Source: Levilactobacillus brevis ATCC 14869 = DSM 20054 (GTDB taxonomy: Bacteria; Bacillota; Bacilli; Lactobacillales; Lactobacillaceae). From it: a stretch of DNA of 64,000 nt. Position numbers and translations under genes: made by a program. The notes under the pieces were generated by a model. That model was not told the DNA's origin and ran no database searches. It saw only the letters and a list, made by a program, of their open reading frames with translations. Shown piece by piece: positions 10,099 through 43,020 of the stretch; within the stretch, counting starts at the first letter, position 1, and the number at the start of each line of letters is the position of its first letter. Location: positions 366,239 to 430,238 of the forward strand of contig NZ_AZCP01000003.1 in assembly GCF_001433855.1 (NCBI RefSeq), in the 5' to 3' direction.

Positions 10099-10112
10099 AA
10101 AAATAACCAAAA

Positions 10113-10212
10113 CACTAGGGGTGTCCACAAATGGGCTGAGATATGGCAACGCCATGATCCCTTAGAACCTGTCAAGTTCAGACTTGCGGAGGGAACGTGT
10201 CGTGGCACCCAA
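10113..10212 (+). ncRNA. TPP riboswitch (THI element)
   Basis: Conserved THI-box segments are present in order: AGGGGTG, GGGCTGAGAT (10133-10142), GATCCCTTAGAACCTG (10156-10171), a GTCAAGTTC arm and GGAGGGAACGTG, closing with CACCC. A terminator follows at 10228-10268, so thiamine pyrophosphate binding should end transcription ahead of thiMDE. Confidence 0.96.
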
Positions 10213-38703: not shown

Positions 38704-39345
38704 ATGACAAACGTTTTAGTATTAGGGGCTAACGGGAAGATTGCGAAGCTAGCTACGGTGCAACTATTAAATAATCCTGACAATCAACTTACCTTGTTCT
38801 TGCGTAAGGCGCAACGGCTGGCAGGGGCTGCCGGTCCCCGAGTGAAGGTCGTGGAAGGTGATGCTAGTCAAGTTGCTGATTTGACAGCGGCGATGGCTGA
38901 TATTGATGTTGTGTACGCAAACTTAGCTGGTCGGAACATTGAAGACGAGGCGCAAGCGGTGGTCACTGCCATGCAGGCTAGTCACGTACAACGCTTGATT
39001 TGGATCTCAACGCTGGGCATTTATGATGAAGTTCCGGGCAACTATGGCAAGTGGAATCACCAAATGCTAGATGGTGGCTACTTGGAAACCTATGCAGCAG
39101 CGGCGAAGGTAATCGAAGCCAGTGATTTAGCCTATACCATTATCCGGCCAGCATGGTTGACGAACCATGACGAGGTCAGCTACGAGACAACTCAAAAGGG
39201 AGAACCGTTCAAGGGAACGGAAGTCTCACGGAAGAGTATTGCGGCATTAGTGGCAAAGCTAGTCACTGATCCGGCTGAATCAGTACGTGCATCGCTAGGC
39301 GTTAATAAACCAAATACGGATGGTGACAAGCCAGCTTGGTACTAA
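38704..39345 (+). CDS. NAD(P)-binding atypical SDR (NmrA/YhfK-like)
   Basis: A 213-aa Rossmann protein. The nucleotide motif VLVLGANGKIAKLA is at the N-terminus; VVEGDASQVADL, RLIWISTLGIYDEV and TIIRPAWLTNHDEVSY follow the NmrA-like atypical-SDR order. The classical YxxxK pair is not conserved, so it may bind cofactor as a sensor or reduce an unknown substrate. AAGAGGTG precedes ATG 38704. Monocistronic. Confidence 0.85.
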   Translation: MTNVLVLGANGKIAKLATVQLLNNPDNQLTLFLRKAQRLAGAAGPRVKVVEGDASQVADLTAAMADIDVVYANLAGRNIEDEAQAVVTAMQASHVQRLIWISTLGIYDEVPGNYGKWNHQMLDGGYLETYAAAAKVIEASDLAYTIIRPAWLTNHDEVSYETTQKGEPFKGTEVSRKSIAALVAKLVTDPAESVRASLGVNKPNTDGDKPAWY

Positions 39346-39574
39346 ACGCCGAGTTGTCGGCATTCAGCCATAGTTTTTTAAATTAAGGGTTCAAAAAGAG
39401 TGCAATGTAAGAGATTTCGCGGTATAACTAACGTGTGTGTTGAGTAGACTCCACACGACCTGTGTTCAGGCTTTTATTACCTTTGGAATCAATTTACTGA
39501 GCTCATTCTGTGAAACTTTTCCTCCAAACAAGAACCATGGATTTGCCTGGAATTGATTCATATATCGTCAAATG

Positions 39575-39606
39575 CCGTCGACAGTTAGCCTGTCGGCGGT
39601 ATTTTT
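39575..39606 (+). terminator. Terminator-like hairpin
   Basis: CCGTCGACAG (39575-39584) pairs with CTGTCGGCGG (39590-39599), followed by T5. The stretch 39346-39574 before it shows nothing else. Confidence 0.75.
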
Positions 39607-39672
39607 ATGACCAATGATTTTATGACCAATGAAAACCGGTCAAATTTAGAACATAATTTGGTGTATTTTGGT

Positions 39673-39703
39673 TGCAAACGCTTACAGCCAGTGTTATTAT
39701 AAT
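39673..39703 (+). promoter_or_regulatory. cre-like site and promoter of the large RNA
   Basis: TGCAAACGCTTACA (39673-39686) fits the CcpA consensus TGNAANCGNNNNCA. A -10 TATAAT lies at 39698-39703; the best -35, TTGCAA (39672-39677), overlaps the cre site with a long spacer. CcpA control is inferred. Confidence 0.6.
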
Positions 39704-39709
39704 AGTGCG

Positions 39710-40286
39710 GAAAGGTCATAAAGGTTGTGACCGAGTTCCATGAGTTAGTATTAGATGTAAGTGTTTGTAACAACTGATTTCCGTTTTGCACGTAAGTCAG
39801 ATTTACCAGCAAGTTTAAGATTCTGAAAGACAGATAGATGACAACTCCGATAAACCTTCTAACGAGCTCTGGTAGTTCTAGGTAACAGAATCAGATTTTC
39901 AGTTTTACAATTGAATAGTGTTTGAAACATCATGCTTCTTGTAAGCAAGTGTTGATAGACTTGAAACAGTTCCAGGCAGTTAACTAGAGTTCGGATGTTG
40001 CGTCGGCAAGACCATATGAGGATTTCAAGAAGAATCGTTAAAATGTGGCCGGTTAGATGTAATGAGGGAATTAAGATTTACAAGTAACACGCTGAAAACG
40101 GCAGCCAGAAATTGTCAGTGAATGAATGTAGTGGTTGTGGCAGCTCAGCGAGAGAAATGTTCTAGTTATGAGGCGATTAAGAATTAGCAAGAAAACGAAA
40201 CGGGAATTTTGCACGACTCACAACCGCCTTTCCGCGAGTTAGCAGACTTCAAGTTATTCGCAACTCAACTTGAAGTCTGTTTTTAT
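39710..40286 (+). ncRNA. Large structured noncoding RNA, about 577 nt
   Basis: A frame-free transcript unit from TATAAT (39698-39703) to a strong terminator. Its ends pair: GCGGAAAGG (39707-39715) with CCTTTCCGC (40227-40235), then GGTTGTG (39723-39729) with CACAACC (40219-40225). Internal helices: CTGATTT (39774-39780) with AAGTCAG (39794-39800); GATTCTG (39819-39825) with CAGAATC (39886-39892); ATCATGCTT (39929-39937) with AAGCA (39943-39947) and TGAT (39953-39956); CTTGAAA (39960-39966) with TTTCAAG (40023-40029). The terminator pairs CAGACTTCAAGTT with AACTTGAAGTCTG (about 40243-40279), then T5. Size and end-pairing recall ornate large RNAs such as ROOL and GOLLD, but no prophage or tRNA is near. 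Class not established. Confidence 0.7.
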
Positions 40287-40553
40287 GTCGCGACTACTCT
40301 TGTTGTTCGGCATAACTCAGCTTTAGCTGTTTTAGTTGGTACATAATCGGTTGGGTGGTTTGTTAGAAACTTACCTAACTTAGTGGTCTTCTGCCACGTC
40401 GTTGTTCTTTGAAATTAGGATATTTGTCGAAAGTAAATCCTTTTAGCAAGAAAACAGAATGTTCAAAGATGTTCTGAATGGGCCGGCCCCTACAGGTGGT
40501 TCAGGGTGATAATGTTCGGAAATAGACTTTTTACGTTTCCCTTAAATCGACCA

Positions 40554-40582
40554 TTTACAGGGCGGCTGGGAAAAGGTATATT
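40554..40582 (+). promoter_or_regulatory. Promoter of the DeoB-like gene
   Basis: TTTACA (40554-40559), 17-bp spacer, TATATT (40577-40582). The stretch 40287-40553 shows nothing else. Confidence 0.7.
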
Positions 40583-40646
40583 ATTACTAGACCGAAAAAT
40601 ACTTGGGGGATTTTTACCTAAATGTTTATCGAAGGAGTGAGCAACG

Positions 40647-41471
40647 GTGGCATTTCATCGCATTTTCGTGGTTGATTTTGCGGGAGTCGGATTGGGCGAA
40701 GCGCCTGATGCGAACCGCTTTCAATCAGTTGGCGCCGATACACTGGGGCATGTGGCAGTTGGTTGGCCAGATAAACTAAATCTTCCAACATTACAGCAAC
40801 TTGGGCTTGGTAATATTCGGGTTGACCATCCTATTCCGGGGGTTGAGCCAATTGACCAGCCCAGTGGCTTCTATGGACGCTTGCACGTTCAAGCACAAGA
40901 CAACCGACGAGCTACTGGATTACGCGAGATGTGGGACTTTACCGGTGAGAACCGGACAGAGACCGTGTTTGCTAGCCTACCAGCGGCGGGGTATGCCGTG
41001 AGTTTAGCGGGACCATTCCTGAGTTATCTGCAAACGCAAAGCGCAGCTCAACGTTTCCAAGTTGGTAGTAATCAGGATGCTTTCCGGATTTTATATGATC
41101 GTTTGTATCAACCAGCGTCCGGCTTGGCTTATGTGGTGCTCCCAGACTTCCGCTTTGCGGGTGAGCAGCAAGATGTTCATGCATTTGCTGAGGCGTTGAC
41201 TAGTGCCGATCATTATCTGGCCCAGGTTCAACATGACTTGGGAGCCAACGATCTTTTGATCGTGACGGCCACACATGCTGATGATCCGACTGTTAGTGCA
41301 ACGCCAACACGCGAATATTTACCGTTATTAGCTTATTCGCCATCGCGGCCAGTTGGGCACGCCTTAGGCATTCGGCGGACATTAGCGGACGTTGGTGCGA
41401 CCGTCCTTGAGAACTTCGGTTTGGCAGGTCATGCTGCCGGACATAGCTTTTTAAATGAGATTACACAATAG
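40647..41471 (+). CDS. Short, divergent phosphopentomutase-like protein
   Basis: A 274-aa alkaline-phosphatase-superfamily protein. The start, FVVDFAGVGLGEAPDANRF, and GADTLGHVA match DeoB, which interconverts ribose 1- and 5-phosphate. DeoB is usually about 390 aa; here the cap domain is reduced. Key motifs are altered: the ADHG metal motif reads ATHADDPT, the DHSRE motif reads TPTREYLPLLAYS, and the KDTTTGHWE-like block is replaced by DNRRATGLREMW. It may be inactive, regulatory, or of changed specificity. It precedes a nucleoside transporter, so a link to nucleoside use is likely. GGAGTG precedes its GTG start. Confidence 0.75.
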   Translation: MAFHRIFVVDFAGVGLGEAPDANRFQSVGADTLGHVAVGWPDKLNLPTLQQLGLGNIRVDHPIPGVEPIDQPSGFYGRLHVQAQDNRRATGLREMWDFTGENRTETVFASLPAAGYAVSLAGPFLSYLQTQSAAQRFQVGSNQDAFRILYDRLYQPASGLAYVVLPDFRFAGEQQDVHAFAEALTSADHYLAQVQHDLGANDLLIVTATHADDPTVSATPTREYLPLLAYSPSRPVGHALGIRRTLADVGATVLENFGLAGHAAGHSFLNEITQ

Positions 41472-41760: not shown

Positions 41761-43020
41761 ATGCTAGTCGCAGTCAATGTTTTAGGGGTAATTGTTTACC
41801 TCGCAATCGCTTTCTTATTCTCTAAGAATAAGAAGATGATCAACTGGAAATCAACTGGAATTGTCTTAGTTATTAACTTGATTTTGGCTTGGTTCTTTAC
41901 CAGCTTCTCCATTGGACAAGACATCGTTAAGGGTGCCGCTGATGGATTCAACTGGTTAGTCCAAGTGGCTTACCAAGGAATCGTGTTCGCCTTACCAAAC
42001 TGGGTAACCCCAGAATTTGGTGGGACGGCGAAGTCCATGAACTTTATTACAAGTTCTCTTCTTCCAATCCTGTTAGTTGTGCCAATGTTTGATATCCTGA
42101 CTTACATCGGGATCTTACCTTGGATCATCAAATGGGTTGGTCGTGGCCTTTCCTTCATTACCGGGCAACCTAAGTTTGAATCATTCTTCTCTGTTGAAAT
42201 GATGTTCTTAGGGAACACGGAAGCTTTGGCCGTTTCTCAATTACAATTGAAGAGCATGCGTAAGGAACGTAACTTAACGCTGGCTATGATGTCCATGTCA
42301 TGTATCACGGCTTCGATTTTAGGGGCTTATACGCAAATGGTTCCTGGTCAATTTGTTTTGACGGCCGTTCCAATTAACATCTTGAACGCCATTATCGTTA
42401 CCAACATGTTGAACCCAGTAGAAGTGACACCTGAAGAAGACACTATTGCTAAAATCGGTGGTTCTAGTACCGTTGCTGCTGAAGAAGGCGAAGTTGAAGA
42501 CGATGGTAAGAAAGAACCATTCTTCTCATTCTTGGGTGACTCCATCTTGGGTGCCGGCCGTTTGATCTTAATCATTGCTGCCAACGTTATCGCCTTCGTT
42601 GCTTTAGCTGCGTTGATCGATAAGATTTTGGCACTCTTCAACCCATGGTTATCTTTGGAACACATCTTAGGGATCATCATGTTCCCATTTGCTTGGTTAA
42701 TGGGTCTGAACGTCCACGACGCTTTCGGCTTTGCCCAATACATGGGGACTAAGTTAGTTACGAACGAATTCGTTGTTATGGGTAAGATTTCATCTACCAT
42801 TAACACCGGTGCTTTCTCTGCCCACTACCGGGCAATCTTGACGGTCTTCTTGACTTCATTCGCTAACTTCTCAACAACTGGGATGATTATCGGTTGTTTC
42901 AAGGGTATCGTCGATCGTGAAAACAACGAACTTATTTCTAAGAACGTTGGCTACATGCTCCTTTCCGGGATCCTGGTTTCCTTGCTATCAGCCGGAATCG
43001 TTGGCTTGTTTGTTTGGTAA
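41761..43020 (+). CDS. nupC: Concentrative nucleoside transporter, NupC family
   Basis: A 419-aa CNT-family permease driving proton- or sodium-coupled nucleoside uptake. Many helices; hallmark sequences are SLLPILLVVPMFDILTYIG, FFSVEMMFLGNTEALAVSQ and the gate region VMGKISSTINTGAFSAHYRA with SFANFSTTGMIIG. A charged loop (about 225-260) lies between helices. GAAAGAGG precedes ATG 41761. It is the first transporter of a nucleoside-salvage block with NCS2 permease and nucleoside hydrolase. Confidence 0.92.
   Translation: MLVAVNVLGVIVYLAIAFLFSKNKKMINWKSTGIVLVINLILAWFFTSFSIGQDIVKGAADGFNWLVQVAYQGIVFALPNWVTPEFGGTAKSMNFITSSLLPILLVVPMFDILTYIGILPWIIKWVGRGLSFITGQPKFESFFSVEMMFLGNTEALAVSQLQLKSMRKERNLTLAMMSMSCITASILGAYTQMVPGQFVLTAVPINILNAIIVTNMLNPVEVTPEEDTIAKIGGSSTVAAEEGEVEDDGKKEPFFSFLGDSILGAGRLILIIAANVIAFVALAALIDKILALFNPWLSLEHILGIIMFPFAWLMGLNVHDAFGFAQYMGTKLVTNEFVVMGKISSTINTGAFSAHYRAILTVFLTSFANFSTTGMIIGCFKGIVDRENNELISKNVGYMLLSGILVSLLSAGIVGLFVW

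Follow-up and report, generated by a model that had tools for sequence, protein, structure and literature searches.

A candidate large structured noncoding RNA of Levilactobacillus brevis, conserved in three genera of Lactobacillaceae and without a match among the known families

To our knowledge, bacteria have few RNA classes of more than 500 nucleotides (nt) with complex conserved folds. Among these, ROOL assembles into a homo-oligomeric cage, and OLE is chromosomal in its Gram-positive hosts and has an associated protein gene. In the accounts considered here, ROOL is encoded in phages and prophages, often near islands of transfer RNA (tRNA) genes, and the passages of PMC12286853 on ROOL and GOLLD describe no function for either. 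PMC5643018 presents a long abundant RNA of an L. salivarius megaplasmid, which is cited for the ROOL class, gives a length of about 610 nt for OLE, and describes the L. plantarum supermotifs (LPSMs), which have a length of 800-1000 nt, occur in many copies and are reported there only in L. plantarum. Here we describe a locus on a 64,000-nt stretch of the chromosome of Levilactobacillus brevis ATCC 14869 = DSM 20054 (contig NZ_AZCP01000003.1, positions 366,239 to 430,238 of the forward strand; referred to as the window), in which positions 39707-40286 of the plus strand look like a stand-alone structured noncoding RNA with an inferred transcript of about 577-580 nt. Sequence comparison supports a conserved large structured RNA gene without a known family, for which a new class is the better fit.

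The sequence resides between a gene for an NAD(P)H-binding protein, which ends at 39345, and the next gene, which starts at 40647. The first-pass annotation, made from the DNA letters, had described this 1.3-kb gap as free of genes, and the longest frame listed there is indeed only 75 codons long (39585-39812, minus strand; all others have at most 57 codons), whereas the description has to be amended by another conserved unit of RNA-like appearance, smaller and located at about 39395-39607, to which we return below. The pairings read in that annotation, 39707-39715 (GCGGAAAGG) with 40227-40235 (CCTTTCCGC) and 39723-39729 (GGTTGTG) with 40219-40225 (CACAACC), are perfect complements, and the two-part terminal helix proposed to close nearly the whole RNA is mirrored in the minimum-energy fold of 39705-40286, in which the predicted stem closes both ends. 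This fold has an energy of -155.4 kcal/mol compared to -139.0 (standard deviation 6.0) in 100 shuffles, none of which was as low (z = -2.74). The previously noticed 13-bp terminator stem (40243-40255/40267-40279) followed by TTTTT is present as well, forming an intrinsic terminator at 40243-40284 on the plus strand. It is missing from the list of our terminator scan, presumably because its loop comprises 11 nt and the scan covers loops of 3-8 nt. In a profile of 15 of the 35 loci introduced below, 14 relatives become more similar to the window at a box of the catabolite-responsive element (cre) type, where identity goes from 0.45 to 0.75, and less similar past the terminator, where it drops to 0.44, as expected of a discrete gene; further conserved blocks are also present upstream and downstream. 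In its own genome, the RNA has a single match at E <= 10 (expectation value), and is a chromosomal single-copy element.

An alignment of homologues had been proposed as a check, and a 651-base stretch of the locus matches 35 of 35 Levilactobacillus genomes, that of L. brevis included. Of these matches, 27 are near full length; the remaining eight were extended and then aligned, too, and the aligned sequences share a mean pairwise identity of 71%. Outside the genus, the DNA-only family search is insensitive and yielded three marginal matches. A covariance model of the 3' part of the RNA (R1, 183 positions; L034, which is identical to L033 in this part, and L035 were left out) led to two further genera, the sequences of which on inspection have the same promoter-like site, ends and terminator. 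The second model, R2 (119 positions; 49 sequences from three genera, four repeats of identical stretches having been dropped), matches 57 of 397 Lactobacillaceae genomes in three of 40 genera, namely 25 genomes of Levilactobacillus, 13 of Secundilactobacillus (g20) and 19 of Lentilactobacillus (g14), and within the order five of 295 genomes, all belonging to the same family. Even the weakest matches, L150 and L151 (E about 0.002), still carry the box, the core motif described below, the paired ends and the terminator. Two copies each occur in L. hilgardii and L. farraginis, and L144 and L145, a pair within one genome, share 94.8% identity. Scanning named genomes by pattern returned 82 stretches, 80 of which (L232 and L233 left out) were checked with R2; it matches 60 of these at E <= 0.01, which carry the names Levilactobacillus, Secundilactobacillus, Lentilactobacillus or, in two cases, just Lactobacillus, and the other 20, from other bacteria or an archaeon, are without an R2 match and were dismissed. 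Similarly, the R1 matches in g37 (four genomes) and g29 (one genome) were attributed to chance: they have no cre-type box upstream, R2 reports neither, and the ones inspected (L096, L098 and L102) by eye lie over protein genes. As a neighborhood control, R2 was run without filters on 20 regions upstream of homologues of the nucleoside transporter NupC, including L276, a second NupC locus of a Levilactobacillus. A further Lentilactobacillus sequence, L258, proved real by eye at E = 0.031 with filters off, which is below the cut-off of the family search, and was excluded from all counts. Besides L258, the box and the core occurred together nowhere in these regions, and the candidates next after it, L272 and L274, did not look real. 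In the Secundilactobacillus G053, neither the genome nor the region upstream of NupC gave a match, nor did the short NupC upstream region of G089. No match came from the phage collection (50,697 records) or the plasmid collection (72,556 records) either, and the 22 viral contigs with the core pattern gave no R2 match up to E = 1.

A search of the whole window against Rfam 15, which the first-pass annotation had recommended for ROOL, GOLLD and other large RNAs, returned at the gathering score only a TPP riboswitch elsewhere (10107-10212) and no ROOL, GOLLD, OLE or other large-RNA family. Between 39000 and 40900, six matches up to E = 10 were all far below gathering, and none was to a large bacterial RNA. 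The outcome supports an RNA outside the described families: that annotation had considered a chromosomal member of the ROOL, GOLLD or OLE kind or a new class, the second of which fits better, while membership in the three families is not borne out. Its statement that no tRNA lies alongside holds for the entire window. Like ROOL, characterized in the relevant passages of PMC12286853 as a large and ornate function-orphan class, the L. brevis RNA is large and ornate, but it is chromosomal, present in each of the 35 Levilactobacillus genomes searched, preceded by a cre-type box and without a ROOL model match. The phage or prophage setting of ROOL near tRNAs was not found in the window or in the phage and plasmid collections, a dedicated prophage search of the window not being part of the analysis. 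With GOLLD it shares that most of the longest-reaching matches fall in the 3' half; unlike GOLLD, which often exceeds 800 nt, it is about 580 nt long, has no match to the model and, as judged by the tRNAs of the window and the phage and plasmid collections, does not reside in a phage or a tRNA island. It is close to OLE in size, but again the OLE model does not match, and no OLE-associated protein is named among the nine proteins of the window scanned with Pfam, three of which are without a family. The LPSMs are, according to the section in PMC5643018, large structured intergenic RNAs of a Lactobacillus as well; their descriptions set them apart from the present RNA, which is single-copy in its own genome and occurs in three other genera. 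The 6S RNA of lactic acid bacteria, a noncoding RNA linked to CcpA, is only about 200 nt long and has no match here. RNase P RNA was excluded, as a separate RNase P RNA is encoded elsewhere in the genome. A diverged ROOL, GOLLD, OLE or other described large RNA would agree with the similar size and the closed ends, which are a resemblance only; given that there is no Rfam 15 match, no tRNA in the window and no match in the phage and plasmid collections, we regard such an origin as highly improbable. A literature search, in which subscription journals were thinly covered, yielded no description of the RNA.

The putative promoter provides a first hint at regulation. The cre-type box TTGCAAACGCTTACA (39672-39686, plus strand), which fits WTGNAANCGNWNNCW, the sequence we take to be the cre consensus, overlaps the -35 hexamer TTGCAA (39672-39677), and a spacer of 17 nt separates the latter from an extended -10 region (39692-39700; TG at 39692-39693, TATTAT at 39695-39700). 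The -10 element had initially been placed at TATAAT (39698-39703); the overlapping TATTAT is to be preferred by virtue of its 17-nt spacer and its conservation in the relatives. The extended -10 pattern was found in 65 of 68 homologues at a fixed spacer, 17 nt in Levilactobacillus and Secundilactobacillus and 16 nt in Lentilactobacillus; L138, the contig of which begins inside the RNA, was left out of this and of the end-pairing and arm-swap counts. A cre box in the promoter, as in the CcpA regulon, is similarly widespread, the strict pattern covering the -35 hexamer in 67 of the 68 homologues with L145 being one base off, although 33 of the rows (Secundilactobacillus and Lentilactobacillus) had been excised via such a box, so that this part of the count is not blind. 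As the consensus has three matches in the window compared to 1.4 expected by chance, it is the position and the conservation of the box that carry weight. In the part of PMC8414754 that deals with this control, cre sites overlapping promoters are repressing in B. subtilis, and 6S RNA is under negative control by CcpA in L. lactis, and probably, or as proposed, in many lactic acid bacteria. By analogy, glucose would repress the large RNA, which is probably under catabolite (CcpA) control.

Evidence for a conserved fold came from 92 proposed pairs in 14 helices, which were evaluated in the 35 Levilactobacillus sequences. Of all cells, 92.5% are paired, compared to 35-44% when the 3' partners were slid, and 22 pairs are changed on both sides compared to 4-10. 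Paired cells, double-changed cells and the covariation score also exceed all 500 shuffles of the 3' letters. The relatedness of the sequences is retained in a tree-based null, for which columns were simulated along the tree with an equal number of changes in 200 runs; the observed 92.5% paired cells, 22 pairs, 139 double-changed cells and 66 extra pair types are each above 200 of 200 simulations, the means of which are 86.6%, 12.1, 36.1 and 52.8, respectively. Both parts of the terminal helix are fair tests, since they had been named in the first-pass annotation from one sequence. The outer helix P1a (39707-39715/40227-40235) has 19 double-changed cells compared to a mean of 1.7, with none of the 200 simulations as high; the inner helix P1b, taken one base inwards (39724-39730/40218-40224), has four compared to 1.1 (20 of 200 as high) and is weak on its own. 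The number of double-changed cells is also above all 200 simulations for the terminator (19 cells), for both parts of the P6 hairpin (40091-40149; 35 cells for the outer part, 40091-40095/40145-40149, and 16 for the inner part, 40101-40106/40133-40138) and for P5a (39997-40001/40059-40063; 23 cells, 100% paired). The latter closes the P5 domain (39997-40063), which further comprises P5c (40013-40017/40043-40047; ten cells, with 4 of 200 simulations as high) and the hairpin P5d (40021-40036). P6 is, by eye, re-paired in Secundilactobacillus and Lentilactobacillus.

A comparison between genera that is independent of the alignment, in which the pairing of each 5' arm with its own and with foreign 3' arms was compared in 68 sequences, points in the same direction. 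For the terminal stem, which re-pairs between genera, the own 3' arm outperforms 90% or more of the foreign arms in 67 sequences; in each genus, the start of the transcript finds its partner bases just ahead of the terminator, the letters being different. The hairpin P2 (39771-39804) holds in its loop the 5' strand of P3 (TTTCCGTTTT, 39778-39787), which would pair with GAAACGGGAA (40197-40206) to form a pseudoknot with P2. For P3, the own arm beats at least 90% of the foreign arms in 43 sequences, with mean energies of -11.0 to -13.5 kcal/mol for own and -6.1 to -11.7 kcal/mol for swapped arms. Most Levilactobacillus sequences have CCGTTT/AAACGG here and most Secundilactobacillus sequences CCCGTTTTG/CGAA(A or G)CGGG; many of those from Lentilactobacillus have CCTACTT/AAGTGGG or CCTGCTT/AAGCGGG. 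Covariation does not support the proposed helix P4 (39864-39872/39984-39992), one of the nine pairs of which is unpaired in 34 of 35 sequences. The core motif TGAGGCGATTAAGAATTA (40169-40186) contains TGAGGCGAT, which is invariant in the 49 aligned sequences from the three genera; L258, which is not among these, has the variant AGAGGCGAT. In some Secundilactobacillus and Lentilactobacillus sequences (L084, L088, L090, L091, L092 and L100), the variable middle of the RNA is expanded by degenerate GTTTCA- and ACCA-like repeats.

The promoter-like site with its cre-type box, the terminator, the paired ends, the covarying helices, the core and the conservation over three genera revealed by this comparison make it likely, in our view, that the locus is a chromosomal gene for a stand-alone large structured RNA, which would be silenced by CcpA on a preferred sugar and would afterwards act in trans as a stable structural RNA. 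The initial call of a large structured noncoding RNA is in keeping with homologues in all 35 genomes searched in the genus, compensatory changes and the lack of a conserved protein. From what is established for CcpA, it may be expected that the complex of CcpA with HPr-Ser-P occupies the -35 region and blocks transcription as long as glucose or another preferred sugar is available, and that the RNA is transcribed once this sugar is exhausted. Since a stem would enclose both of its ends and a terminator hairpin follows, the RNA might be long-lived, and it might act in trans as a protein scaffold or as an RNA-only assembly around the conserved 3' core. It may tentatively be speculated that it represents a new class of large ornate RNAs, forming RNA-only or RNA-protein assemblies, that belongs to the core genome and a carbon-starvation program and not to phages, a possibility to which we assign less weight than to the gene itself; for lactic acid bacteria, we know of no precedent for such a core-genome, starvation-linked RNA. 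RNAs this large and ornate are rare, and this one is chromosomal, single-copy, present in each of the 35 Levilactobacillus genomes searched and found in culturable food bacteria, with the cre-type box as a likely regulatory handle. The role of such RNAs would thus become directly testable by a change of sugar and the deletion of one small locus.

Several observations weigh against this reading. When the 3' letters were shuffled, two of the five measures did not stand out: double-changed pairs number 22 compared to a mean of 19.2 (24 of 500 as high), and further pair types 66 compared to 69.4 (482 of 500 as high). Most helices were chosen after viewing the alignment, so that the helix test leans toward them; P1b, P2 and P5b are weak, and P3, P4, P5d, P8 and P9 show no double change within the genus. 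In an all-against-all covariation screen within Levilactobacillus with the tree-based null, no pair reached E <= 0.5, the best standard pair being 40001-40059 (E = 4.4); the covariation support therefore comes from the named helices. For P3, 25 of the 68 sequences miss the 90% mark in the arm swap. CcpA binding is predicted from a motif. Finally, no protein partner or target was found, the targets sought being exact complements in 23S ribosomal RNA (rRNA), of which the core has none. An alternative is that the RNA is regulatory and base-pairs with distant messenger RNAs through exposed loops, similar to RNAIII, a large regulator. A free-standing unit with a promoter-like site and a terminator would be in accordance with this, as would short conserved stretches outside the proposed helices (TGAGGCGAT and a AATTGAATA-like motif). 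Yet exact complements were absent from 23S rRNA, where alone targets were sought, and a simple pairing RNA would not need paired ends and hairpins kept over three genera, so that we consider this role rather unlikely. The sequence CCTCCTTTCC, the 3' strand of P1 in many Levilactobacillus sequences, presumably resembles the 3' end of 16S rRNA; this likeness was discarded, as it is not kept in the other genera. A 16S model had no match in this assembly.

The genes that follow the structured RNA on the plus strand code for a protein of the metalloenzyme superfamily (40647-41471), which we take to be phosphopentomutase-like, and for the NupC-type nucleoside transporter (41761-43020); the downstream operon also includes a xanthine/uracil permease-family protein and a nucleoside hydrolase. 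The RNA might hence be a giant cis-acting leader or attenuator of this nucleoside operon, the terminator being switched by refolding, perhaps upon nucleoside binding. The linkage holds at almost every informative locus: a gene like that at 40647, a NupC-like gene or both follow on the same strand in Levilactobacillus (31 of 35 loci, four being too short to show it), Secundilactobacillus (13 of 13) and Lentilactobacillus (17 of 21, the remainder being two contig ends and two second copies). Moreover, the terminator arm GACTTCAAG has a look-alike in GATTTCAAG at 40021-40029. In contrast, the second copies L145 (L. hilgardii) and L142 (L. farraginis) lie away from these genes, so that the RNA is not joined to the operon at each locus, and they nevertheless keep promoter, paired ends and core. 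In L147 and L149 other frames intervene and the 40647-like gene is about 1.5 kb away, and the operon has conserved upstream elements and a separate promoter-like site of its own (TTTACA-17-TATATT, 40554-40582, plus strand). By eye, Secundilactobacillus has a different hairpin at the place of the terminator look-alike. On the grounds of the off-operon copies, the operon's own promoter-like site and the intervening frames, we favor a free RNA and judge a leader to be decidedly unlikely, while an additional effect in cis on the operon may exist. The attenuator idea, based on the look-alike GATTTCAAG and on AGATTCAAG in several Secundilactobacillus sequences, was dropped, as by eye the pattern is not kept in L080, in L082 or in the rows from Lentilactobacillus. 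For the free structured RNA, the place beside a nucleoside-uptake operon might reflect a shared use in carbon starvation, not leader control. Upstream, the frames in Secundilactobacillus and Lentilactobacillus do not match those of the window. The second copies L142 (core at 1767-1892 of the reversed locus) and L145 (core at 2501-2623) are each followed, at a distance of about 2 kb, by a similar frame, MMT[RK]RNKIL..., which points to a second locus common to both.

The absence of a credible frame, as originally noted for the sequence, also agrees with our results, which revealed neither a protein conserved across the region nor a sign of coding. The longest frames, with 24-67 codons, overall do not surpass those of shuffled sequences, in which the longest averages 58. 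All 35 Levilactobacillus sequences share one open frame of 22-24 codons that starts from ATGAGGCGATTAAG and varies in length by whole codons, as might be expected of a messenger or dual-function RNA. Differences in this frame are spread evenly over the three codon positions (446/440/443), however, and of 434 codons with a single change 321 are non-synonymous, both counted over pairs among 23 distinct sequences that are equal in length; the frame stops after three codons in 33 of 33 Secundilactobacillus and Lentilactobacillus sequences, and by eye no Shine-Dalgarno stretch is apparent before it. The codon-position and between-genus evidence led us to reject a small protein, and a coding function appears extremely improbable.

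Further conserved elements flank the RNA. The unit at 39395-39607 (plus strand) has a TATAAC -10-like site, a 5' hairpin, a helix GAATCAATT/AATTGATTC, a strong terminator and the mostly unpaired sequence TTTTCCTCCAAACAAGAACC with an anti-Shine-Dalgarno-like CCTCC. At E <= 0.001, 30 of the 35 Levilactobacillus genomes have a match to it, in three cases only to a short weak piece, and it has no Rfam match; the fold of 39430-39607 has a z-score of -3.6, with 1 of 200 shuffles as stable. A distance of 0.8-2.5 kb separates it from the large RNA in at least six genomes, which makes it probable that the unit is a small RNA in its own right. The spacer that leads from the large RNA to the operon contains GTAAATCCTTTTA (40433-40445), a sequence kept in 16 of the 17 loci (of 35) that were aligned downstream. 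Its reverse complement, TAAAAGGATTTAC, occurs at the same place in Secundilactobacillus (L081 and L087) within a unit of about 110 nt resembling a promoter-to-terminator arrangement (CCTTGGCAGGGGC...); the element had no Rfam match in the loci searched. Finally, the conserved block at 40510-40590 before the 40647 gene, which contains GTTCGGAAAT, in several relatives an inverted repeat like CGATTTTCTTAAATCG, and the TTTACA-17-TATATT site, looks like an operator region.
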